In this document: positions 17,979 to 46,376 of the stretch, one piece after another | Layout: every line of letters starts with the position of its first letter | How positions within the stretch are numbered: position 1 is the first letter of the stretch | Source: Nitrospirota bacterium | Lineage (GTDB): Bacteria; Nitrospirota; Thermodesulfovibrionia; Thermodesulfovibrionales; UBA6898 | Length of the DNA stretch: 64,000 nucleotides | Reading direction: 5' to 3' | Assembly (NCBI GenBank): GCA_016214855.1 | Contig: JACRMT010000004.1 | Coordinates: 62,001-126,000, forward strand | Program-made: the position numbers and the translations under genes | Notes under the pieces: generated by a model | Told to the model about the DNA's origin: nothing | What the model saw: the letters and a program-made list of their open reading frames with translations, nothing else | Databases searched by the model: none

Positions 17979-18097
17979 ATCATCATTGTGATACAGAATT
18001 GCATTGATGAACCAGGTTTTTTCTCATAGAATGGAATAACATTCCTCTTGTGCGATATTTTTGAGGAGTGATCACTATGTTTACGGAGGAATGTTCA

Positions 18098-18988
18098 ATG
18101 TCAAGACCGGCATCACAGGGCGCAAAGTTCAGGGCAGCGGTTGAAGAGGAGAGGCCGCTTCAGGTTGTCGGGGCGGTCAACGCCTATGCAGCCCGTCTGG
18201 CAGAGCGAACAGGATTTAAGGCTCTTTATCTGTCCGGCGGCGGTGTAGCTGCCAGTTCTCTTGGTGTCCCTGATCTCGGCATCAGTACCATGGATGATGT
18301 GCTTACCGACCTCCGCCGTATTACTGATATTTCTGATCTGCCGGTCCTTGTGGATATCGATACCGGATGGGGCGGTGCCTTCAATATCGGCCGAACAATC
18401 CGTTCCATGATCAAATGCGGAGCTGCTGCAGTTCACATCGAGGACCAGGTCCAGGCAAAACGCTGCGGACACCGGCCAGGCAAGGCGATTGTGAGCAGGG
18501 ACGAGATGGTGGATCGCATCAAGGCCGCGGTCGATGCGAAGACCGATCCTGATTTCGTGATCATGGCGAGGACTGACGCCCTTGCGGTCGAGGGTCTTCA
18601 GTCAGCGATAGACCGGGCCTGCGCATGTGTGGAAGCGGGAGCAGATATGATCTTTCCCGAGGCAATGACAGAACTCGCGATGTATAAGGAGTTCGTAAAG
18701 GCCGTGAAAGTTCCGGTCCTGGCGAATATCACCGAGTTCGGCTCCACCGGGCTCTACACGGTTGAGGAACTGCGTAAGGCTGATGTTTCCCTTGTGCTCT
18801 ATCCGCTTTCGGCTTTCAGGGCAATGAGCAGGGCAGCGCTTTCCGTGTACGATGCGATCCGCCGGGACGGAACACAGAAGAGCACATTACCGATCATGCA
18901 GACACGCGAAGAATTATATGATTATCTCGACTACCATTCGTTTGAGCAGAAGCTTGATAAAATATTTTCCCGGGAGGAGAAGCAATGA
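18098..18988 (+). CDS. prpB: 2-methylisocitrate lyase
   Basis: Last step of the methylcitrate cycle: splits 2-methylisocitrate into pyruvate and succinate. From ATG 18098 the protein has 296 residues, the usual PrpB length. The catalytic loop reads [13 protein letters not shown], the metal-binding region [11 protein letters not shown], and the substrate loop [21 protein letters not shown] lies 8 bases before this ATG; in-frame alternatives at 18068 (GTG) and 18077 (ATG) would add 10 or 7 residues. It leads an operon behind a sigma54-type promoter and overlaps prpC by ATGA. Confidence 0.95.
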
Positions 18989-20145
18989 GCGCAGCAGAGG
19001 CAGTAGAAACAGCAGCACCAAGGGCAAAGAAATCGGTCGCACTCTCTGGCGTATGCGCAGGTAATACTGCTGTCTGCACGGTCGGGCGTACCGGCAATGA
19101 CCTGCATTACCGCGGATACGATATCGTGGAACTGGCGATGCAGTCCACTTTTGAGGAGGTTGCTTATCTCCTTGTGCATGGGGAGCTGCCGACCGTATCG
19201 GAACTCAAGGACTATAAGAAGAAGATGAAGAGCCTGCGCGGACTGCCGGCAGAATTGAAGACTGTGCTGGAGCATATCCCTGCTGCGGCACATCCGATGG
19301 ATGTTCTCAGGACAGGCTGTTCGGTGATCGGTACAATCCTTCCTGAAAAGGAGGACCGTAATATGCAGGGGTCGCGCGACATTATCGACCGCCTGGTCGC
19401 ATCCTTTGGATCGATGCTCTTGTACTGGTGGCATTACAGCCAGAACGGCCGCAGGATCGATGTAGAGACGGACGATGACACGGTTGCAGGCCATTTTCTG
19501 CATCTGCTGCACGGCAGAAAGCCTTCACCGCTTCATGAAAAATCTCTTGACCAGTCGCTCATACTGTATGCCGAGCATGAATATACCGCCTCCACCTTTG
19601 CGGCGCGGGTCATCACCGGAACGCTTTCAGACGTGCACTCGGCCATTACCGGTGCGATCGGCGCGCTGCGCGGGCCGAAACACGGCGGTGCCAACGAGGT
19701 AGCCATCGAGATCCAGAGGCGTTACCGCACTCCTGAGGAGGCTGAGGCGGATATCCGGGCCCGCGTTGCGAACAAAGAGATCGTTATCGGTTTCGGCCAT
19801 CCTGTTTATACGGTGAGCGATCCGAGAAATCCGATCATCAAGGAGATCGCGCGCAAGCTCTGCAAAGACGGAGATAACATGAATCTTCACCAGGTGGCAG
19901 ACCGTATCGAGGCTGTCATGAAAAGGGAAAAGAACATGTTCCCGAACCTCGACTGGTATTCTGCGGTCTCCTATCATATGATGGGCGTGCCGATCCTGAT
20001 GTTCACGCCGATATTTGTCATATCCAGGACCACCGGATGGGGTGCTCATGTTATTGAACAGCGGCTGGACAACAAGATCATCCGGCCTTCCGCGAACTAT
20101 ATCGGAATGGAGGACCGGACGTACCTGCCGATAGAAAAAAGATAA
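18985..20145 (+). CDS. prpC: 2-methylcitrate synthase
   Basis: A citrate-synthase-family enzyme condensing propionyl-CoA with oxaloacetate. The 386-residue length fits methylcitrate synthases and is shorter than type I citrate synthase. Catalytic blocks are GPKHGGANE and [13 protein letters not shown] with active-site histidines, and the C-terminal [16 protein letters not shown]. Its start overlaps the prpB stop. Position between prpB and prpD favours methylcitrate over citrate synthesis, though such enzymes often accept acetyl-CoA too. Confidence 0.94.
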
Positions 20146-20167
20146 CAGTACCCGAGGCAACGGGTGG

Positions 20168-20186
20168 ACGCAGGGAGCTCCTGCGT
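20168..20186 (+). other. Small hairpin between prpC and prpD
   Basis: ACGCAGG and CCTGCGT pair around a 5-base loop in the 103-base gap between prpC and prpD. There is no T-run, so it looks like an mRNA-stability or processing element rather than a terminator. Confidence 0.4.
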
Positions 20187-20248
20187 TCACTGCGCCCCGC
20201 AGAGCACCGCTTTTCAGAATAAATTCAGTGAAAGATAAGAGGGACACT

Positions 20249-21700
20249 ATGAGCTCACCTATATCGAATATCCGTCCGGAACCGGACAAGGTCCTGGCCG
20301 ACATTGCTGATTACGTCTGCAGCTATGAAATTACGTCTGATGAGGCATTTGAGACAGCGCGGTACTGTCTCATCGATACGCTTGGCTGCGGTCTTGAGGC
20401 CTTGGGCTATCCTGCATGTACCAAGCTGCTCGGTCCTATCGTTCCGGGCACGATCGTGCCTGACGGGGCGCGGGTCCCGGGTACACAGTTCCAGCTTGAC
20501 CCTGTGCAGGCAGCATTTAATATCGGCGCCATGGTGCGCTGGCTCGACTTCAACGACACGTGGCTTGCTGCGGAATGGGGCCATCCTTCTGATAACCTCG
20601 GCGGCATACTTGCCGTTGCCGATCATCTTTCGCGCAAAGCGGTCAGTGCAGGGAAGAAGCCTCTGACCATGCGCGACGTGCTGACCGCAATGATCAAGGC
20701 CCATGAGATTCAGGGGGTGATCGCGCTTGAGAACGCCTTTAACCGCGTAGGTCTTGACCATGTGGTATTGGTGAAGGTCGCTTCTGCTGCTGTATGCGCA
20801 AGACTGATGGGCGGCAGCAGGGAAGAGATCATCAATGCAGTATCGCAGGCCTTTGTTGACGGCCAGTCCCTCAGGACGTACAGGCATGCGCCGAACACCG
20901 GCTCGCGCAAGTCCTGGGCCGCAGGCGATGCAACCAGCAGGGCTGTGCGTCTTGCCCTCTTTACGATGAAGGGCGAGATGGGCATCCCCGGTGTGCTTAC
21001 TGCCAGGGGCTGGGGTTTCTACGATGCGCTCTTCAGAGGCAATGAGTTCAAATTCCAGCGGCCGTACGGCTCGTATGTCATGGAGCAGATCCTCTTCAAG
21101 ATATCCTTCCCGGCAGAGTTCCATTCCCAGACCGCTGTGGAATGCGCCATGGCGCTCCATGCCAATTTGAAGGAGATCGGCCGGACCACAGACGATATAA
21201 AAAAGATATCGATCCGCACGCATGAGGCAGCCATACGCATCATCGACAAGAAGGGCCCTCTCAGCAACCCTGCTGACCGCGACCATTGCATACAGTACAT
21301 GGTGGCCGTGCCTTTGATCTTCGGACGACTTACTGCTGCGGACTATGAGGACAGCATTGCCGCAGATCCGAGAATTGATGCGCTGCGTGAGAAGATCACC
21401 TGCCTGGAGGATCCTCAGTTCACGAAGGACTATCATGACCCGGATAAGCGCTCGATCGCCAATGCCATCACCGTGGAAATGCATGATGGTACACAGCTGT
21501 CGGAGATCGTCATCGAATATCCGATCGGCCATTGCCGCCGCCGTAAAGAAGGCATGCCGGTACTTGTCGAGAAGTTCAGGACCAATCTCAACCGCCGTTT
21601 CCCGTCAAAACAGCAGAAGGCGATACTTGACGTCTCTCTTGATCAGTCAAGACTTGAAGGGATGCCGGTGAATGAATATGTTGATATGTTTGTGATATGA
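20249..21700 (+). CDS. prpD: 2-methylcitrate dehydratase (MmgE/PrpD family)
   Basis: Dehydrates 2-methylcitrate to 2-methylaconitate. From ATG 20249 the product is 483 residues, the same length as enterobacterial PrpD. Family blocks visible are [48 protein letters not shown] and [19 protein letters not shown] precedes this ATG; an in-frame GTG at 20228 would add seven residues. Because PrpD is present, the aconitase downstream probably does the rehydration step to 2-methylisocitrate. Confidence 0.95.
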
Positions 21701-21736
21701 GGATCTGCACAAGGTTTGCTGAAGCAGTGAAGCAGT

Positions 21737-24433
21737 ATGCATAACCTTTTCAATACGCTCAGGGAATTCGATCCCGGCATGGGCAGGACAGGGAAGATCT
21801 ATTCCCTTCCTGCTCTTGCAGAGGCAGGTCTCGATAACATCTCCCGCCTTCCGGTCTCGATCCGCATCCTTCTCGAATCTGTGCTCAGGAACTATGATGA
21901 AAAGAAGATAACTGAAGATCATGTGAAGCAGCTTGCCGGATGGAAGCCTGATGCAGGCCGCACGGAAGAGGTCCCTTTTGTTGCGGCGAGGATCATATTG
22001 CAGGACTTTACCGGCGTGCCCCTGCTCTGCGACATGGCTGCCATGCGCGGCGTGGCCCTGCGCGAGGGTAAGGACCCGGGCATTATCGAGCCTCTTGTGC
22101 AGGTCGATCTTGTGGTGGACCATTCTGTGCAGGTGGACCACTACGGCGAGACATCTGCTCTACGGAAGAACATGACGCTTGAGTTCGAACGCAACAAGGA
22201 GCGGTATCAGTTTCTGAAATGGGGCATGAATGCCTTTAAGACCTTCAAGGTGATCCCGCCCGGCATAGGTATTGTGCATCAGGTGAATCTCGAATATCTC
22301 GCGCGCGGCGTTCACCGGAAGGATGATCTGTATTACCCTGATACCCTTGTCGGCACAGACAGCCACACCACCATGATCAACAGCATCGGCGTGGTCGGCT
22401 GGGGAGTCGGCGGCATAGAGGCAGAGGCCGGCATGTTAGGCCAGCCGGTCTATTTCCTCACGCCGGATGTTGTCGGAGTCCGGCTCAGAGGAAGGCTGTG
22501 CGAAGGGGTGACTGCAACGGATCTCGCTCTGACCATAACAGAGATGCTCCGCAGGGAAAAGGTTGTCGGAAAGTTCGTCGAATTTTTCGGTGAGGGCGCT
22601 TCATCTCTTGCGCTCCCTGACCGTGCTACTGTTGCCAACATGGCTCCGGAATACGGCGCAACGATCGGCTTCTTCCCTGTGGATGAACAGACCATTGCTT
22701 TTTTCAGGTCGAGCGGACGCACTGACGAAGAAGTATCTGCATTCGAGGCATATTTCAGGGCGCAGGAAATGTTCGGGATGCCGAAGCCCGGAGCGATCGA
22801 TTATTCGAAGGTGATCGAGATCGATCTCTCTGGTGTCAGGCCGTCTGTAGCAGGACCGAGACGTCCGCAGGAGCGCATCGAACTTCCTGATCTCGGCAGC
22901 AGGTTTACTGAACTGTTCAGCAGGCCGGCAGAGGAGAGCGGTTTTGCCAAAAAAAGCGATGATCTGCCAAAACGCTTCAGGACAAAGGACCGCAAGGAGG
23001 TCGGTTCCGGTGATGTGATCATTGCTGCGATCACGTCCTGTACGAACACCTCTAATCCGGCGGTCCTGCTTGCCGCAGGCCTCCTTGCGAAAAAGGCTGT
23101 TGAGAAGGGTCTGACCATAAGGAAACATATCAAGACCTCTCTTGCGCCCGGATCGAGGGTTGTTGCCGATTATCTGAAGAGGGCCGGTCTCCTGTCCTAT
23201 CTTGAAACGCTGGGCTTTTCTGTTGCTGCATACGGCTGCACCACCTGTATCGGCAATGCAGGACCGCTGGATCAGGGGATAGAAGAGACCATTGTGAAGA
23301 ACGATCTTGTCTGTGCAGCGGTACTTTCCGGCAACCGGAATTTCGAGGCCCGCATTCATGCCAATCTGCGCGCCAATTTTCTGATGAGTCCGCCTCTTGT
23401 GGTGGCCTTTGCCCTTGCGGGTACGGTGATCAAAAATATGGAGAGAGATCCTCTCGGCATCGGGAGCGACGGCCTGCCTGTGTATCTGAAGGACGTATGG
23501 CCGGGCAATGAAGAAGTGGCTGCGGTGATGAAGTATGCCGGAGATCCGGAGGTCTTTCGACGCTTATACTCTGACGTTACAAAAGATCACGAACTATGGA
23601 ACAACGTAGCAGCTGTTTCTGAAGAGGTCTATAACTGGCCGTCCTCCACGTACATTGCGGAACCGCCTTTCTTTGACGACTTTGCCATGCAGCCCGGCGC
23701 TGTGACCGATATTAGGCATGCACGTGTGCTTGCCATCTTCGGGGATTCTGTCACGACCGACCATATCAGTCCTGCAGGTTCGATCAGGGCCGATTCCCCT
23801 GCAGGCAGGTATCTCATGGAGCAGGGTGTAGGGAAGGGCGACTTTCAGAGCTACGGCACCCGGCGGGGAAATCACCACGTGATGATACGCGGCGCCTTTG
23901 CAAACGTGCGCATAAGGAATCTTATGCTGTCGGCCGGGGAAGACGGGAGCCGTCCTGAGGGAGGATATACTCTGTTTCAGCCGTCCGGTGAAATGATGAG
24001 CATCTATGACGCTGCAATGAGTTATTCAGCGCAGGATATTCCGACGGTTGTCTTTGCCGGCGAGGAATATGGCACGGGTTCTTCAAGGGACTGGGCAGCC
24101 AAGGGCACGCAGCTTCTTGGCGTGAGGGCTGTTATTGCAAAGAGCTTCGAACGCATTCACCGCTCCAATCTTGTCGGCATGGGCGTGCTGCCGCTGCAGT
24201 TCAGGACTGAAGATTCTGTTTCCTCGCTCTCTCTCAGAGGAGACGAGCAGTTTGATATCACAGGACTGGATGACCTTCGTCCGCAGCAGGAGATTGGACT
24301 TACCATCAGGAGGGCGGATGGCTCAGTGCAGAACATTATGGTCTTATCCCGTATCGATACCCCCATAGAGGCTGATTACTTCAGGCATGGAGGCATTCTT
24401 CCCTATGTACTCAGGGAACTATTGGCAAAGTAA
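21737..24433 (+). CDS. acnA: Aconitase A-family hydratase
   Basis: An 898-residue [4Fe-4S] hydratase of the AcnA/IRP type. Cluster ligands are visible in [11 protein letters not shown] and [13 protein letters not shown]; the swivel-domain [15 protein letters not shown] with the substrate-binding serine is intact. The gene sits between prpD and prpE, 36 bases after prpD. It could hydrate 2-methylaconitate in the methylcitrate cycle, serve the TCA cycle, or both. AcnD-type activity would require a PrpF isomerase, and no prpF is present here. The start at 21737 has only a weak ribosome site. Confidence 0.92.
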
Positions 24434-24487
24434 GGTATTTGTCGTTATTATAAAGCTATAAGTAAAATATAAGACAGGAGGCTTACG

Positions 24488-26386
24488 ATGGGCAGGTACG
24501 AGGAGCTATTCAGAAAGAGCATTGAGGACCCCGAGGGTTTCTGGGGTGAGGCAGCAGAGGGGATCTCATGGTATAAAAAATGGGATAAGGTGCTGGACGA
24601 TTCGAACAAGCCGTTCTATCGCTGGTTTACCGGTGGGCAGATGAACACCTGCTACAACGCTGTTGATCGTCATGTTGAAGGCGGCCGCGCAGACCAGACG
24701 GCGATCATCTATGACAGTCCGGTAACTGGTGCAATACAGAAGTTCACGTATCGGGAACTTCTTGATCAGGTTTCACGGTTTGCCGGTGCTCTAAAAACTA
24801 TGGGAGTCACCAAGGGCGATACGGTCATTATCTATATGCCGATGATCCCGCAGGCAGCCATCGCAATGCTTGCCTGTGCGCGTCTGGGGGCTATTCATTC
24901 GGTGGTATTTGGAGGTTTTGCTCCTCACGAGCTTGCGATACGCATTGATGACGCAAAGCCCCGGGTCATCATCTCCGCATCCTGCGGCATAGAGGTAAAG
25001 AAGATCATCGAGTATAAATCGATGCTGAATAAGGCCATTGAACTGGCTGAATATAAGCCGGAAAAATGCGTGATCTTCCAACGTCCCCAGGTTACTGCCG
25101 AGCTTATCCCGGGGCGTGATTTTGACTGGGACGAGATAGCGGCAAAGGCAGAACCGGCGGACTGCGTGCCGGTCATGGCGACTGACCCGCTCTATATCCT
25201 CTATACCTCGGGAACCACCGGCAAGCCAAAAGGCATTGTGCGCGACAACGGCGGCCATGCCGTTGCTCTGCGGTGGAGCATGGAAAATATCTATGATACA
25301 AAACCGGGTGAGGTTTACTGGGCAGCCTCTGATGTGGGCTGGGTAGTCGGCCACTCTTATATCGTGTATGCCCCGCTCCTGGCTGGATGTACCACAATAC
25401 TTTATGAGGGAAAGCCGGTCGGTACCCCTGATCCGGGAGCATTCTGGCGCGTCATCTCGGAACACGGGGTGAAGACCCTTTTCACTGCGCCGACTGCATT
25501 CCGGGCGATAAAGAGGGACGATCCCCAGGGTGAATATCTGAAAAAATATGATCTGTCTAATTTTAAATATCTTTTCCTTGCCGGTGAGCGGCTCGATCCT
25601 GATACGTATCACTGGGCACACAACCTTCTTCACCGGCCAGTGGTTGACCACTGGTGGCAGACAGAGACTGGGTGGCCGATCACCGCTAACTGTATGGGTA
25701 TAGAACAATTTCCTCTTAAGCCCGGTTCGTCGACCAAGCCTGTTCCGGGATTCGATGTCCAGATACTCGACCCCAGCGGCAAGGTTCTCGGCCCGACCGA
25801 GGAGGGTCTTGTCGTCGTCAAACTGCCCCTGCCTCCGGGCACGCTGCCTACACTTTGGCAGGCTGATGAGAGATTCCTACAGTCATATACCAAGGTATAT
25901 CCCGGTTACTATTTCACGAGTGACGGCGGGTTCAGGGATGAGGACGGGTATGTCTTTATCATGGGCCGCGTTGATGATGTGATCAATGTAGCAGGCCATC
26001 GTCTTTCGACCGGTGAGATGGAAGAGATCATTTCCCAGCACCCGGATGTTGCAGAATGCGCAGTCTTTGGTGTTCATGATTCGCTGAAGGGGCAGGTCCC
26101 GTTCGGCCTTGTGGTCCTGAAATCCGGTGTCAAGACAGATGACAGCGTTATGAAAAAAGGACTCGTAGGCATGATACGCGAAAAGATTGGCCCCATTGCC
26201 TGCTTTAACGAAGCTGCAGTGGTCGGAAGGCTGCCGAAGACCCGGTCGGGAAAAATTTTAAGAGGCACGATGAGAAAAATAGCAGATGGTGAGCCGTATT
26301 CAATGCCATCGACCATCGAGGACCCTGCAGTTCTTGGTGAAATAGAGGAAACGCTCAGAAAAGCGGGGTATGCAAACAAGAAATAA
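24488..26386 (+). CDS. prpE: Propionyl-CoA synthetase (acyl-CoA ligase)
   Basis: AMP-forming ligase that activates propionate with ATP and CoA. The 632 residues match PrpE length. It carries the P-loop YTSGTTGKPKGIVRDNGGH, the PrpE-like continuation distinguishing it from acetyl-CoA synthetase, plus WWQTETGW, the hinge YFTSDGGFRDEDGYVFIMGR and the catalytic lysine in KTRSGKILRG. That lysine is the acetylation-controlled residue in the family. A clear AGGAGGCTTACG ribosome site precedes the ATG. It closes the prp operon. Confidence 0.94.
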   Translation: MGRYEELFRKSIEDPEGFWGEAAEGISWYKKWDKVLDDSNKPFYRWFTGGQMNTCYNAVDRHVEGGRADQTAIIYDSPVTGAIQKFTYRELLDQVSRFAGALKTMGVTKGDTVIIYMPMIPQAAIAMLACARLGAIHSVVFGGFAPHELAIRIDDAKPRVIISASCGIEVKKIIEYKSMLNKAIELAEYKPEKCVIFQRPQVTAELIPGRDFDWDEIAAKAEPADCVPVMATDPLYILYTSGTTGKPKGIVRDNGGHAVALRWSMENIYDTKPGEVYWAASDVGWVVGHSYIVYAPLLAGCTTILYEGKPVGTPDPGAFWRVISEHGVKTLFTAPTAFRAIKRDDPQGEYLKKYDLSNFKYLFLAGERLDPDTYHWAHNLLHRPVVDHWWQTETGWPITANCMGIEQFPLKPGSSTKPVPGFDVQILDPSGKVLGPTEEGLVVVKLPLPPGTLPTLWQADERFLQSYTKVYPGYYFTSDGGFRDEDGYVFIMGRVDDVINVAGHRLSTGEMEEIISQHPDVAECAVFGVHDSLKGQVPFGLVVLKSGVKTDDSVMKKGLVGMIREKIGPIACFNEAAVVGRLPKTRSGKILRGTMRKIADGEPYSMPSTIEDPAVLGEIEETLRKAGYANKK

Positions 26387-40655: not shown

Positions 40656-42113
40656 TTATTTTTTTGCTGCTGTCCTTTTCTCGGACCTGCCAGGCTGTTC
40701 GCTCAGTGTTCTTGTGCCGACTCTCATGGGATCGCCTGCATAGCCAAGGGCTTTCCAATCGAGTCGTTTGCCTTCCATGTGACAGTCCTTGCATTTTAGC
40801 GACTGATCCTTTGGAGCAACCTCATGGTTAATGCTGCCATAGAAGGCTGTTTCGACGAATTGATGTCTGCCACTATAGGGAAGTCCAGAGCCTTTGGCCC
40901 CGTCAATGAGCCCTTTTTCCCAGTCAAAATGCTCCCAGACGCCTTTATAGGTCTGAGGAATGAGAAGGTATTGGAATGCGCTGTCCATGGGCTGTCTGCC
41001 GGTATGCACCTTAAAGGGATAGATCTTTGCGCCGCGGTCCTTTATGCTTCCTGTCGGCTTTGAGATATAGACGGTCTTTGAGGGGTCCTTAATCTTGTCG
41101 CCCTTCATGTACCGCTCGATCTTTCCGTCATACCAGGCATAGGTCGGGATAACGTTCATTTCCCATACAAAGTTACCTTTGTGTTTTGCATAGGTTTCCT
41201 TGCCGAACTGCTCCTCGGGCTCAATATCTTTGCCGAGCGTGGACCAGTCCCATCGCATCTTTGTGGCCTGACCCCTGGCGAACGCCGGTACATGACAGGT
41301 CTGGCATGCAACCGACTGCATATGCTGTCCGAGAACTTTCCTGGATGCCGAGTCCTTATGCGGGTCCCTATGGCAGTCCTCGCAGCTCACTCTGCCGTCA
41401 TTAGTCGCAAGGAAGGTTGATGCGCCTGCGATCCTGTGGTCCTTGACCGTGTGACAGCCCTGGCAGGACATGTCAGTAACGCCTCCCATATGAACGTCAT
41501 GGTCGCGCGTCGGTTTTGCCATGGTCGAATCAAGGTCGCCGTGCTTGACCGCATCGCCCCCTCCGCCATAGAAGTGGCAGACGCCGCAGTTATCGCGATT
41601 GGGTGATGCGACGCTCTGGGCAGCCTTTGTGAGATTCATCTTGCCCTGTTCCATGAGCTTGCGGTCCGGCTCTCCGGCAAGACCCTTACGGTAATTCCCT
41701 TCCTTTGCGTGGCATATCAGGCAATCTATCTTGGTCTTGTCCGTGAAGGTGAAGGTATTGTCCACCCAGCCATAGCTTGGGTGACACTTGGCACAGAACT
41801 CCTCGTTTGCGCACTTCTCACCTCCCTGGATCGAGATGCAGAAGTTGTTGATCATGTTCAGCTTGCCGTATTCTTCCTTGCTGTTCTCCATGCCCTTGAT
41901 CGTCCTGGGCAGCCCTTTCCATTTCCAGTGAGGTGTCTTCATGAAATCCTCTGCCTGCTTGTCATGACACTGGAGGCAGGTCTTTGTAACATCTTCGCCT
42001 GATTTGAAGGGACCTTTCAGATACTGCGCGTGGTCCGCAGCATGCGAGATGCCGATAACCATGCATAACGACGTGACAGCTGCAGACGCGATTCTGAGAA
42101 CAGTGACATTCAT
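40656..42113 (-). CDS. Octahaem tetrathionate-reductase-family cytochrome c
   Basis: A 485-residue periplasmic protein with a signal peptide (about 1-26) and exactly eight CXXCH haem sites: CLQCH, CAKCH, CLICH, CGVCH, CQGCH, CEDCH, CQTCH and CKDCH. Spacing, length and the long haem-free stretch before the last site resemble the octahaem tetrathionate reductase (OTR) group, whose members reduce tetrathionate and in vitro also nitrite or hydroxylamine. ATG 42113 has GGAGG six bases upstream; the longer frame from 42137 lacks one. It is first in a minus-strand set with the small exported protein and the porin-like barrel. Confidence 0.88.
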   Translation of the reverse strand: MNVTVLRIASAAVTSLCMVIGISHAADHAQYLKGPFKSGEDVTKTCLQCHDKQAEDFMKTPHWKWKGLPRTIKGMENSKEEYGKLNMINNFCISIQGGEKCANEEFCAKCHPSYGWVDNTFTFTDKTKIDCLICHAKEGNYRKGLAGEPDRKLMEQGKMNLTKAAQSVASPNRDNCGVCHFYGGGGDAVKHGDLDSTMAKPTRDHDVHMGGVTDMSCQGCHTVKDHRIAGASTFLATNDGRVSCEDCHRDPHKDSASRKVLGQHMQSVACQTCHVPAFARGQATKMRWDWSTLGKDIEPEEQFGKETYAKHKGNFVWEMNVIPTYAWYDGKIERYMKGDKIKDPSKTVYISKPTGSIKDRGAKIYPFKVHTGRQPMDSAFQYLLIPQTYKGVWEHFDWEKGLIDGAKGSGLPYSGRHQFVETAFYGSINHEVAPKDQSLKCKDCHMEGKRLDWKALGYAGDPMRVGTRTLSEQPGRSEKRTAAKK

Positions 42114-42290
42114 GCAGACCTCCTGCCCGACGGGCATTCTACAAGCGATTTGTTAATAAGAAATGAATGGTTGTCTGTTCTGCAGCGCTCTGGGAAAGGG
42201 AAGTGATGGAATGAAGAAACAATAACCGGAATATGATCATCTGCTGCAACAGATACGCATTCTCCTTGTGAATCCGCTTTCATCAAGAGT

Positions 42291-42316: not shown

Positions 42317-42441
42317 CAATAAGATTCTTAACTAAATACATAAGAACATATGATTATTCTAATTTGATGATAGGCTGTCCGCCTCTGCTCACCGAAAACC
42401 GGCTGGTCTTCTATCTGATGTGAGTCCTGCGGGGAGGTGTA

Positions 42442-42450
42442 TGGTAAAAT
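42442..42450 (+). promoter_or_regulatory. Extended -10 box of the amidohydrolase gene
   Basis: TGGTAAAAT ends 8 bases before ATG 42459, with no good -35. It supports 42459 rather than upstream in-frame starts at 42420 or 42441. Confidence 0.45.
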
Positions 42451-42458
42451 GTTGCGCA

Positions 42459-43517
42459 ATGCATAATGAAAAAAAGAAAATGACGTATCGGGCACAGATC
42501 ATAGGAAGTGCTGAAAATGATCTTGTGCTGCCGCAGTTCCTTGGCATTGAACATGGCATAATCCGGTCCCTTTCCAGCCAGAGCCCGAACGATCCGGAGC
42601 AGGAGATCGTTGATCTCGGGCAGCTCGTAATAGCACCGCTTTTTTGCGATCATCACCTTCATTTTCCCGGAAATTCCGCGTTAAAGGCCGATGACGCAGG
42701 ACGCCGGATTCTCTGCCATGGCATAGGGAGAGTATTTGAAGGAGGTGATAAGGCCGGCCGAGGGCTGACGGTCAGAGATGCACTGAAGGGCAGACTGCAG
42801 ATAAGGGCAGCCGGCTATGCGCTATTCAGGAAGGGAGGGTACGGCACTGCCATCGGGCAGGGTGTTGAAGATGCGGAGGACGCTTTAAGAAGGATCGACG
42901 AGCTTCAGTCCCTGTCAGTTGATTATATAAAGATCATTCATTCCGGTATTTACGAGCCTGAGTCAGACCTGATCACGGCTGGCGGCTTTGGTACGGCAGA
43001 GCTGGGGCGCATTGTGGACCATGCAAGGAAGAGAGGCCTTGATGTCTATTGTCATGTGAATGGTGACAAGGAGGTTAAGGAGGCGGTTGACGCAGGCGTA
43101 ACCGCTGTTATCCATGGCCTGCGCGTAAGCGATGCAACGCTGTCAGCCATGGCTGCCAACAACGTAGCATTCATACCTACCGTGCATGCATTTCATGGCC
43201 TGCATGCCATTGCCAGGTCCGATACCGCAAGGCAGAACATAGAGAGGTCGGTCAACGGGCATCTGTCTGCAGTCAGCAAGGCCTATGAACTTGGCGTGAG
43301 GATCCTGCCGGGAAGCGATGCCGGCCCCAGTTTTTTACCCTACGGCAGTTCGTATCTGGCGGAGCTTGGCCTCCTTGAGAAGGCTGGCATCCCGTATCCA
43401 AATCTCATTCGGGCTGCTTCCATGACTGCTCTGCAGGTGAATGCCTCAGCGGATTTTCTGGTCCTTGATGGTCTGTCGGTAACCCGGGTCGTGATGGCCG
43501 GGCAGGTGGTATACTGA
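42459..43517 (+). CDS. Amidohydrolase-superfamily metal-dependent hydrolase
   Basis: About 352 residues. The metal-binding HxH is in CDHHLHFPG; later ligands are likely H in YCHVNGDKEV, H in AVIHGLRV and D in LPGSDAGPSF. The C-terminal strand (ADFLVLDGLSVTRVVMAGQVVY) is the beta-sandwich end typical of imidazolonepropionase/prolidase-like amidohydrolases. Substrate is unknown. The start is uncertain between 42459 and 42480. Confidence 0.82.
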   Translation: MHNEKKKMTYRAQIIGSAENDLVLPQFLGIEHGIIRSLSSQSPNDPEQEIVDLGQLVIAPLFCDHHLHFPGNSALKADDAGRRILCHGIGRVFEGGDKAGRGLTVRDALKGRLQIRAAGYALFRKGGYGTAIGQGVEDAEDALRRIDELQSLSVDYIKIIHSGIYEPESDLITAGGFGTAELGRIVDHARKRGLDVYCHVNGDKEVKEAVDAGVTAVIHGLRVSDATLSAMAANNVAFIPTVHAFHGLHAIARSDTARQNIERSVNGHLSAVSKAYELGVRILPGSDAGPSFLPYGSSYLAELGLLEKAGIPYPNLIRAASMTALQVNASADFLVLDGLSVTRVVMAGQVVY

Positions 43518-43601: not shown

Positions 43602-43997
43602 ATGAGGACCATATCACTATTTTTGTTGGGACTGCTGATGCTTGTCTCTTCGGCTGCAGCTGCCGAGACCTTCAAAACAGTAACAGCGGACGAGCTGAAA
43701 AAGATGATCGACAGCGGAAAACAGATCACTGTTGTGGACACCCGCACAGAGGAAGAATTCAGGCAGGGTCACCTGCCAAAGGCAGTGAATATCCCGCCTG
43801 AAAAGGTGAATAACATCGGAGATCTTCTCCCGAAGGCCAAGAACAGGCCTGTTGTTTTCTATTGCAGGGGCGTTGGCTGAGGTCTTTCAAAGCAGGCTGC
43901 GGTCGCAGCCGAAAAGGCGGGATACACAGACATACAGATCTTTCAGGCCGGTTATCCCGAGTGGACTGCAAAAGGGTATAAGACTGTAACTAAATAA
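43602..43997 (+). CDS. Periplasmic rhodanese-like selenoprotein (in-frame UGA as Sec93)
   Basis: Reading the TGA at 43878-43880 as selenocysteine gives a 131-residue single-domain rhodanese. It has a signal peptide (about 1-21, ending AAAA), the conserved VVDTRTEEEFRQGHLPKAVNIP segment, and the active loop C88-R-G-V-G-U93. After UGA the frame continues GLSKQAAVAAEKAGY and ends in FQAGYPEWTAKGY, the normal rhodanese C-terminus, to TAA at 43995. Ordinary homologues have cysteine at position 93 (CX4C). A hairpin with a GGUC loop lies 14 bases after UGA. Standard calling would truncate the gene at 92 residues. GGGAGG precedes the ATG. Confidence 0.85.
43895..43910 (+). promoter_or_regulatory. Candidate bacterial SECIS hairpin 1
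   Basis: GGCTGC and GCAGCC form a 6-bp GC stem closing a GGTC loop, starting 14 bases after the UGA. A guanine at the loop start and this distance fit bacterial SECIS elements; the E. coli fdhF loop also contains GGUC. Confidence 0.65.
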
Positions 43998-44016
43998 GAA
44001 GAAAAGGGAGACGACC

Positions 44017-44382
44017 ATGCGGCGTATTGTTATCCTGTTCTCAGTATTACTTCTGTTCTGCGCGTCTGCTTATGCAGGGGAGAGAAGCGCGTCCGGGTCT
44101 GTTGTCCTTGCCGAACGGCAGGCAGCGGATGTCCGGGTCGTCATGTACATGACAAGCTGGTGACCCTACTGCAGAAAGGCCCGTGAGGACCTTAAGAGAC
44201 TTGGTGTACAGCTGGTTGAATACGATATTGAAAAAGATGAAACAAAGAAAAAGGAAATGAAGAAGCTGACCGGCGGCTCGACCATGGTTCCGGTCATCGA
44301 TATAGAGGGGATCGTCATCAGGGGCTATGAGCCTGACGAGATCAGGCATGCTGTCGAGAAGACGAGGAAAGGCCCGAGATAA
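44017..44382 (+). CDS. Periplasmic glutaredoxin-like selenoprotein (UPYC, Sec49)
   Basis: With TGA at 44161-44163 read as selenocysteine, ATG 44017 to TAA 44380 encodes 121 residues. A signal peptide (about 1-20, ending AYA) is followed by a thioredoxin fold: VRVVMYMTSW then U49-P-Y-C52, the glutaredoxin CPYC site with Sec in place of the first cysteine. Later come VEYDIEKDE, the cis-proline region STMVPVIDIEG and IRGYEPDEIRHAV, all normal glutaredoxin features. GGGAG lies 6 bases before the ATG. The gene starts 19 bases after the rhodanese and ends 2 bases before the TlpA-like gene. Standard calling misses it entirely. Confidence 0.87.
44176..44193 (+). promoter_or_regulatory. Candidate bacterial SECIS hairpin 2
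   Basis: AAGG/CCTT and CC/GG pair with one C-A mismatch, closing a GTGA loop, starting 12 bases after the UGA. Weaker than hairpin 1 but correctly placed, with a leading loop G. Confidence 0.45.
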
Positions 44383-44384
44383 CA

Positions 44385-44900
44385 ATGCCGAGGTTCTGCT
44401 CTGTCCTCCTTCTTCTCATCTGCCCGGTTTTGTGTTTCCCTGTCAGGGCCTTTTCCGTCACCCGGGGAGAAGCAGCTCCTGCATTTGCGCTTTCCGATCT
44501 TCAGGGCATGAAGCACACACTTTCCGATTATACCGGCAAGGTTGTCTTGATCAACTTCTGGGCAAGCTGGTGCGGAGAATGCATTACCGAGATGCCGTCG
44601 CTGAACACGGTACATACGCAGTTCAGCGACAGGGGGCTTGCGGTGCTCGGCGTGACCGTTGACAGAATCACTGAAGATGCGCGCGCTGCGGCAAAGAAAG
44701 CCCGTATTGCCTTTCCGATACTCGTTGATGCGAGGGGCGAGGTCTTTATCAGAAAATATGCGGTGATCGGTCTTCCGACAACGATCGTTCTGGACAGAAA
44801 GGGCGTTATACGGGAGATCCTCGTCGGTTCTCAGGATTTTCAGGAAAAAAAGATCAGGGACATGCTAGTTTCCTTACTGAATGAAAGAACTGCCCCTTAA
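44385..44900 (+). CDS. TlpA-like exported thioredoxin
   Basis: A 171-residue thioredoxin-fold protein with an N-terminal signal or anchor (about 1-24). The redox site is WASWCGECI (CxxC) after VVLINFW, and the cis-proline is in IGLPTTIVLD, typical of TlpA/ResA proteins. It starts 2 bases after the selenoglutaredoxin gene, so the three proteins are made together and exported. A role as electron donor or partner to the two upstream proteins is inference. Confidence 0.92.
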   Translation: MPRFCSVLLLLICPVLCFPVRAFSVTRGEAAPAFALSDLQGMKHTLSDYTGKVVLINFWASWCGECITEMPSLNTVHTQFSDRGLAVLGVTVDRITEDARAAAKKARIAFPILVDARGEVFIRKYAVIGLPTTIVLDRKGVIREILVGSQDFQEKKIRDMLVSLLNERTAP

Positions 44901-45427: not shown

Positions 45428-46288
45428 TTATTTGTTTTGATGGCAGCCTGTGCAGATACGCCCTTTGGTGAGCCGCAGTTTCTTGTATGAGTCAGCACCT
45501 ACAGCCGCTGCGCTTTTCACGATGATGCCTGCCTGATGGGGATTATGACAGGTTGAGCAGGTGATCCTGCCCCTGTTCAGAAGCGGCAGCAGCACGCCCT
45601 GTTCTTTGGCATGCTGCTTCATGAATGCCAGTGTCTGACGGCGTGGCTTTATCTGAAAATGTGCATTAAAGAAGCTGGCAGGCATTGGAGGGTGACACCT
45701 CCAGCAGATGAATGCTACATCAGCCCTGAATATGACCTGTATACGGGTGGCCCGCTGGTCAGGAACGGCAGCGTGACAGACGAGGCAGATCGGTCCGTTG
45801 TTTACCACCCGAATGGTCCCGTCAGGTTCTGTCATGACATGAGGATTAAAGCTCAGGTCCAGATCTAAGGTATGGCATCGCGAACATATCTCCCTTCGGT
45901 CTGCATAAGGTGCGCCGCGGAGCAGCCCGGGATTGGAGAGCCTGTTCGTCCCGTGCGCCTCATGACAGGTAAGGCATTGCATCTCGCCGTCCAATAGGGG
46001 AAATCTGCTGTCTATGTCCCTGTCAGGAGTAAAGTTTACCGGGTGATGGGTTTCGCTATAGTGGTGGCAATCCATGCAGACGGAGGACATGTCCAGATCC
46101 GGCGCAACTGCGGATGCCTCGTCATAGGCAGGCGTCGATGTCCGGTGGCACATGACGCAATCCGTATGATACTGGTCAATGGCCTGTTGAGCTGCTTCAC
46201 TGTAAACGACAACAGACAAAAGAAGGAGCGTCAGAAAGATCAGACAAAAAACAATGTGCCGTGTCCATCCATCAGCTGCTGCTCTCAT
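45428..46288 (-). CDS. Membrane-anchored octahaem cytochrome c
   Basis: A 286-residue protein with an N-terminal membrane anchor (about 10-30) and eight CXXCH motifs: CVMCH, CMDCH, CLTCH, CSRCH, CLVCH, CWRCH, CSTCH and CTGCH. HH and CHEAHG/CHNPHQ neighbours resemble the doubled-CXXCH type of electron-transfer cytochromes. ATG 46288 follows GTGGAGGCAGCG; a longer frame from 46321 lacks a site. It probably passes electrons between the inner membrane and periplasmic partners. The exact partner, possibly the octahaem reductase 3 kb away, is inference. Confidence 0.88.
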   Translation of the reverse strand: MRAAADGWTRHIVFCLIFLTLLLLSVVVYSEAAQQAIDQYHTDCVMCHRTSTPAYDEASAVAPDLDMSSVCMDCHHYSETHHPVNFTPDRDIDSRFPLLDGEMQCLTCHEAHGTNRLSNPGLLRGAPYADRREICSRCHTLDLDLSFNPHVMTEPDGTIRVVNNGPICLVCHAAVPDQRATRIQVIFRADVAFICWRCHPPMPASFFNAHFQIKPRRQTLAFMKQHAKEQGVLLPLLNRGRITCSTCHNPHQAGIIVKSAAAVGADSYKKLRLTKGRICTGCHQNK

Positions 46289-46376
46289 TCGCTGCCTCCA
46301 CGGGTAAGGATTTAGTTCCATGGTGTGATGCGGTCGTATTCTTGCCGTTGAAAATGAAATTGAGATGAACTCCTTA

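Follow-up and report, generated by a model that had tools for sequence, protein, structure and literature searches.

The genes at the locus

The window analyzed here, a stretch of 64,000 nucleotides from a Nitrospirota genome (3.3 Mb, 23 contigs, rated 100% complete), contains three adjacent genes that encode a rhodanese (Rhd), a glutaredoxin (Grx) and a thiol-disulfide oxidoreductase resembling TlpA and ResA (Table 1). The Rhd and Grx genes are separated by 19 bases, and Grx and the TlpA-like gene by 2 bases; the coordinates, these gaps and the in-frame TGA codons of the three-gene cassette are all as originally predicted. Inspection by eye showed signal-like N-termini in the three products, as well as in the Rhd and Grx orthologues that were printed. 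The active loop of Rhd, Cys88-x4-Sec93, lies in the motif FYCRGVGUGLS, and Grx carries the motif WUPYC. The Pfam matches of the three proteins all exceed the gathering scores, which in the case of Grx (PF00462) is 22.9 bits. The TlpA-like protein also matches the NCBIfam profile of ResA, a cytochrome-maturation reductase, with 105.6 bits, which is below the cut-off of 170.

Table 1. Features of the Rhd-Grx locus and its surroundings (positions are those of the window)
Feature	Position	Strand	Description and basis
Rhd, exported single-domain rhodanese selenoprotein	43602..43997	+	131 aa; Sec93 = TGA 43878-43880; Pfam Rhodanese 76.8 bits
Rhd SECIS-like apical hairpin	43895..43910	+	GGCUGC-GGUC-GCAGCC, starts 14 nt past the TGA; fold, alignment, pair counts
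Grx, exported glutaredoxin selenoprotein	44017..44382	+	121 aa; U49-P-Y-C52, TGA 44161-44163; Pfam Glutaredoxin 60.7 bits
Grx SECIS-like hairpin	44176..44193	+	AAGG-C-CC-GUGA-GG-A-CCUU; folds, alignment, pair counts; weaker support
TlpA/ResA-like exported thiol-disulfide oxidoreductase, facultative third gene	44385..44900	+	motif WCGEC, no TGA; Pfam AhpC-TSA 100.8 bits
Amidohydrolase-family gene	42420..43517	+	84 bases upstream of Rhd; Pfam Amidohydro_1 35.9 bits
Octahaem cytochrome, tetrathionate reductase (OTR) family	40656..42137	-	NCBIfam TIGR04315 558.6 bits, cut-off 375
Eight-CxxCH cytochrome	45428..46321	-	Pfam Paired_CXXCH_1 62.0 bits

The original prediction placed the cassette between two octahaem cytochrome genes. 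Both genes exist, and eight CxxCH motifs were counted by eye in each of them, but each lies one gene away and on the opposite strand, the amidohydrolase gene intervening on one side and an Adhesin_E gene on the other. A scan for sigma-70 promoters returned three promoter-like sites in total against 3.1 expected by chance, none of them upstream of Rhd, and neither such a promoter nor a terminator was supported as a marker of the Rhd-Grx unit. A motif scan of the window, judged by eye, yielded no further convincing selenocysteine (Sec) gene. Elsewhere in the window (18068-26386) there is a run of genes resembling a methylcitrate pathway, with members of the PEP mutase/ICL family, citrate synthase, MmgE/PrpD, aconitase and acyl-CoA synthetase.

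Selenocysteine coding of Rhd and Grx

Several lines of evidence show that the neighboring Rhd and Grx genes do encode Sec proteins, as had been predicted. Firstly, the genome encodes SelB (375 bits) and tRNA-Sec (70.9 bits), both above the respective cut-offs. Secondly, cysteine takes the place of Sec in relatives. Searching 395 genomes of the phylum gave 35 Rhd matches (E<=1e-20) in 30 genomes, of which 24 contain one in-frame TGA; of the 11 others, nine were inspected and all nine have Cys at the Sec site. In the case of Grx, six of the seven orthologues that are paired with Rhd contain the TGA, and the seventh (in genome G018) has WCPYC, whereas the other paired orthologues carry WUPYC or WUTYC at the corresponding locus. 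Cys was likewise present in all 13 non-TGA Grx loci printed by a script that was limited to W-C/U-x-Y/F/W-C motifs.

Furthermore, the regions following the TGA codons were analyzed for SECIS-like structures and for selection. The helix of the Rhd hairpin is 94.2% paired over 23 sequences and has 23 double-change cells, and its covariation is 0.379 compared with 0.106 after shuffling; neither the pairing nor the covariation value was attained in any of 500 shuffles. Double changes occur in just two of the six pairs, a number reached by 375 of the 500 shuffles. This alignment was made without L055, which has the same 48 bases as L054, without L060, whose longer C-x6-U loop was missed by the motif search, and without L089, a chance match to the pattern. 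The Grx hairpin is the weaker of the two: its helix is 87.0% paired, a value equalled or exceeded in 55 of 500 shuffles, three of its pairs are invariant, and most measures are not significant in an alignment of ten rows, nine of them distinct (L057 was added by hand and duplicates the L054 row). Folding of single sequences was unremarkable for both regions (z = -1.33 for Rhd and +0.97 for Grx). Past the TGA, pN/pS is low in both genes (0.04-0.27 in seven comparisons for Rhd and 0.18-0.27 in six comparisons for Grx), and both downstream parts are therefore under purifying selection.

Conversely, if the TGA codons were real stops, the downstream parts would be separate or dead, and an ORF search with the standard code does terminate Rhd at 43880. 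However, the presence of SelB and tRNA-Sec, the conservation of the TGA together with the Cys counterparts in relatives, the covarying Rhd hairpin and the purifying selection past the TGA all speak against plain stops, and we have rejected this explanation as extremely improbable.

Conservation of the pair and its neighborhood

The nearest Rhd orthologues were sought in 61 genomes, namely its own and 60 relatives, and the closest ones were found in ten other genomes (G001-G007, G016, G018 and G030). A Grx gene adjoins Rhd in seven of these ten (G001-G005, G007 and G018), and in six of the seven both proteins are selenoproteins. Identity of Grx at the paired loci is 53-75%, and the gap between the two genes is 8-78 bases at the six loci measured, including the window. 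Retention of the pair in seven of ten genomes at this level of Grx identity supports the view that the two proteins form a unit. On the other hand, no adjacent Grx is present at the Rhd gene of G006, G016 or G030, nor at a second Rhd copy in G004, and Grx is therefore not an obligatory partner.

On the scale of the phylum, each gene occurs in 30 of the 395 genomes (E<=1e-12 in the case of Grx) and both occur together in 15. The two genes are neighbors in five of these 15, all belonging to genus g1, and are located on separate contigs in the other ten. Thus, in all ten sampled two-gene genomes outside genus g1 and G018, Rhd and Grx are on different contigs, and no Grx was found in the flanks of their Rhd loci (about 1.5 kb, or less where a contig ends). 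A wider search of genomic contigs with a Grx profile found 98 loci, 80 of which were kept; Rhd lies beside Grx in six of them, all in genomes already known to have the pair, so that this search added none. The records with paired loci are Nitrospirota MAGs, for example MnB_6, SZUA-452, UBA6898 and UBA6905. The adjacency expected from the original prediction is thus conserved among close orthologues but does not extend beyond one genus and a single further genome of that family (G018). Our literature search found no earlier report of this Rhd-Grx arrangement.

The proposal of a three-gene relay as a constant unit did not hold. The TlpA-like gene is the third gene in just three of the seven paired loci (G002, G003 and G018). 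In the other four (L053, L054, L055 and L057) the gene after Grx instead specifies a product of about 60 aa with a SEC-C zinc motif (CWCGSGKKYKKCH), an assignment based on Pfam runs on two of the four loci. The unit is therefore a genus-level pair of selenoprotein genes with a facultative third gene.

Other genes persist near the pair as well. A tblastn match to the amidohydrolase is located upstream of Rhd in all seven paired loci, although it is a fragment only in L054, and RlmI-like genes likewise remain nearby; ordinary synteny may consequently explain part of the Rhd-Grx adjacency. The amidohydrolase gene is a neighbor conserved in the genus that gives no sign of a function shared with the pair. 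In some loci it looks broken, being a fragment in L054 and split over two pieces in L055.

The cytochrome genes are not constant neighbors. The octahaem cytochrome is linked to the pair in L051 and L052 only, and the second cytochrome is found near the locus in L052, L053 (partial) and L057, with no match in L051, L054, L055 and L056. We have therefore dismissed the cytochromes, located one gene away on the opposite strand, as partners of the pair. Similarly, dsrA was found in 24 of 29 genomes with Rhd and in 19 of 20 without it and hence is not a correlate of Rhd; it does not discriminate within family f25 either, where 11 of 14 genomes have dsrA and 12 of 14 have Rhd. The original prediction had suggested polysulfide as a substrate; nothing in the data points to it, and the distribution of dsrA lends it no support. 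In family f25, the Rhd orthologues (L211, L213-L216, L218 and L222) lie beside genes that, named by eye, encode an IclR-type regulator, a LarE-like protein and, mostly, a PurD-like protein. No redox genes were recognized by eye near Rhd in 16 regions outside the genus, and these contexts do not support a function for Rhd.

Genes for Sec-containing glutaredoxins are also present at other Nitrospirota loci (L134, L141 and L143). The frame that immediately precedes the Sec-Grx gene in L141 and L143 has an end resembling that of a methylenetetrahydrofolate reductase, and L134 looks similar.

The Cys-x4-Sec loop and the possible role of the pair

According to the available text of a review of human rhodaneses, the catalytic loop of these enzymes follows the motif Cx4R/T or Cx5R (PMC10135228). 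Rhd has a rhodanese fold and a catalytic loop that begins with Cys, as in active rhodaneses (based on PF00581, the structural model and Foldseek, whose best match to the model was human TSTD1, 6bev), but it departs from this rule in that the sixth loop residue is Sec or Cys. In the AlphaFold2 model (pLDDT 74.8, seven sequences), Cys88 ends the strand formed by residues 84-88 and Sec93 immediately precedes the helix formed by residues 94-105, which places Sec93 as the sixth residue of the loop. Neither Cys88 nor Sec/Cys93 varies across an alignment of 25 homologues, hand-picked from those seen. Such an invariant couple is as expected for a redox pair rather than for a substrate-binding Arg, and the occurrence of Sec or Cys in place of Arg or Thr, and of nothing else among the inspected loci, points to chemistry carried out by residue 93. 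The Rhd homologue in G030 (L060), which also contains a TGA, has a longer loop (YCHGGTSGU, C-x6-U).

The Cys-x4-Sec loop is the distinctive part of the system and is worth following. The available part of a 2026 review describes five forms of rhodanese selenoproteins, with the motifs UxxS, UxxG, CxU, UxxG and UxxxxU (PMC13188914); CxxxxU is not among these five, and Rhd scores below every NCBIfam cut-off tested, so that a stand-alone CxxxxU rhodanese appears uncatalogued in these sources. The nearest curated profile is TsoB (NF045694), a rhodanese/DsbD fusion selenoprotein of the Tso operon, which matches Rhd residues 15-127 with 71.5 bits against a cut-off of 805 and over profile positions 34-155 only. 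Rhd shares with TsoB the loop spacing, which is that of the UxxxxU motif of the review, and the location in a cluster of several selenoprotein genes. Unlike TsoB, Rhd lacks a DsbD part, is 131 aa long compared with 572 profile positions, and has Cys at the first position of the motif. The LYCAU rhodanese (NF041203), corresponding to form 3 (CxU) of the review, is also a small Sec rhodanese, but Rhd reaches only 53.9 bits with this profile (cut-off 115) and has CxxxxU instead of CxU. The fold is also shared with the single-domain sulfurtransferases E. coli PspE and human TSTD1, the former of which is likewise periplasmic (PMC10215317), but Rhd differs from both by having Sec as the sixth loop residue. 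Grx shares the UPYC motif and the fold of the Sec glutaredoxin described in the review (UxxC, PF00462; PMC13188914), its model showing a glutaredoxin fold with a pLDDT of mostly 88-96 over the domain; unlike that protein as there described, it is exported, lies beside a Sec rhodanese and belongs to a genome without a gshB match. As for the TlpA-like protein, it matches PF00578 and the ResA profile like the ResA/TlpA oxidoreductases, and differs from them in scoring below the NCBIfam cut-offs and in being a variable partner of the pair. The view that two Sec proteins in one cassette are unusual is fair, but there is precedent in the Tso and SAO systems, which the review presents as multi-selenoprotein operons (PMC13188914).

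Outside the inner membrane, sulfur-bonded thiols are the probable targets of Rhd and Grx. We tentatively favor the idea, though it falls somewhat short of being probable, that they constitute a genus-level periplasmic thiol module of two selenoproteins in which Rhd would reduce persulfides rather than act as a plain sulfur carrier. Every step beyond an encoded and conserved Sec is one that we infer, as follows. Cys88 of Rhd would take up a sulfane sulfur, the donor being thiosulfate, polysulfide or a persulfide; attack of Sec93 on the inner sulfur would then release sulfide and leave a Cys88-Sec93 selenylsulfide. This selenylsulfide could be reduced by the UPYC motif of the adjacent Sec-Grx, or by other exported thioredoxin-fold proteins, and Grx might in turn be re-reduced by the TlpA-like or another exported thioredoxin-fold protein, which would draw cytoplasmic electrons via CcdA-type membrane proteins. 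A 2011 study by Kim et al., cited in PMC9312934, reportedly describes, to judge by its title, a Sec glutaredoxin that reduces another selenoprotein. Thioredoxin and glutaredoxin systems catalyze depersulfidation, according to the available text of PMC11763069. The genome has no gshB match despite being rated 100% complete, which makes glutathione less likely as the reductant of Grx.

In favor of such a module are the adjacency in seven of ten genomes with short gaps, the two DsbD_TM proteins of CcdA size encoded by the genome, the lack of a gshB match, and TsoB, in which, as far as its description goes, a related loop is coupled to a DsbD-like part serving as membrane electron conduit. Against it are the restriction of the adjacency to one genus and one further genome of the family, the separation of the genes in 10 of 15 two-gene genomes, the Rhd genes elsewhere without Grx, the non-redox context in family f25, the missing TlpA-like gene in four of seven paired loci, the C-x6-U loop of G030, and the failure of dsrA to discriminate. 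A stronger version, in which the pair would be a dedicated, glutathione-independent periplasmic Sec-to-Sec relay, with Rhd reducing persulfide (or thiosulfate or polysulfide) via an internal selenylsulfide, a private Sec-Grx and a replaceable downstream donor, is decidedly doubtful.

Other explanations start from the same observations. The best score of the TlpA-like protein being that for ResA, and CcdA-type proteins and nearby multihaem cytochromes being present, the locus might serve periplasmic thiol maintenance: apocytochromes and disulfides or oxidized (sulfenylated, selenenylated) proteins would be reduced by Grx and TlpA, and Rhd, with its invariant Cys/Sec pair, would use the rhodanese fold as a two-thiol redox protein without transferring sulfur. 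We consider this somewhat unlikely, in view of the fold, catalytic-type Cys and loop length of Rhd, which match those of active single-domain rhodaneses, and of the inconstancy of TlpA and the cytochromes as neighbors. Alternatively, Rhd may be an ordinary periplasmic sulfurtransferase like PspE of E. coli, which takes sulfur from thiosulfate according to the available text of PMC10215317, with Sec only tuning the loop and the proximity of Grx being inherited synteny without a shared pathway. The genomes in which Grx is not adjacent, the different gene contexts of Rhd (f25) and the equally persistent RlmI-like and amidohydrolase neighbors would fit this explanation. However, the strict requirement for Sec or Cys at residue 93 argues for chemistry by that residue, and the short gaps and the retention of the pair at 53-75% Grx identity argue against mere synteny, which makes an ordinary sulfurtransferase unlikely.

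The Cys/Sec pairs could also bind or reduce arsenic, mercury, selenite or similar compounds in the periplasm. The review (PMC13188914) considers metal or metalloid binding possible for many predicted selenoproteins and names UXX-star proteins in this context; Grx matches the Uxx_star profile (NF041212) with 61.5 bits, narrowly below the cut-off of 66. But no metal-resistance gene was found among the 27 proteins scanned, which cover part of the window, and Grx retains the second Cys of the redox motif UxxC, so that metal, metalloid or selenium handling seems improbable.

If the module that we favor exists, it would unite in two genes a Sec glutaredoxin and a second selenoprotein that may be its substrate, and Rhd could link the use of selenium to sulfane-sulfur chemistry in the periplasm of Nitrospirota that bear dsrA. 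The functions of most predicted selenoproteins, such as the Sec rhodaneses, are not clear according to the available part of a review (PMC9312934). Families of Sec rhodaneses have been catalogued from sequence, and a second loop residue that is Sec or Cys without exception suggests a selenylsulfide and a release of sulfide, both of which can be tested.

Two further Sec rhodanese genes are located outside the window in the same genome. One of them (L064:364-1716, on contig C23) encodes a protein of 451 aa whose N-terminal part bears a CKQCH motif. Of its three rhodanese-like stretches, the first contains YCGGVTURLS; CxxxxU rhodanese domains are therefore not unique to the window locus. Similar matches, in frames of about 447-474 aa with one TGA, are found in many genomes of the order. 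The other (L066:4912-5295, on contig C8) encodes a Sec rhodanese of the LYCAU family, scoring 132.1 bits and thus above the cut-off of 115, which brings the number of Sec rhodanese genes in this genome to at least three.
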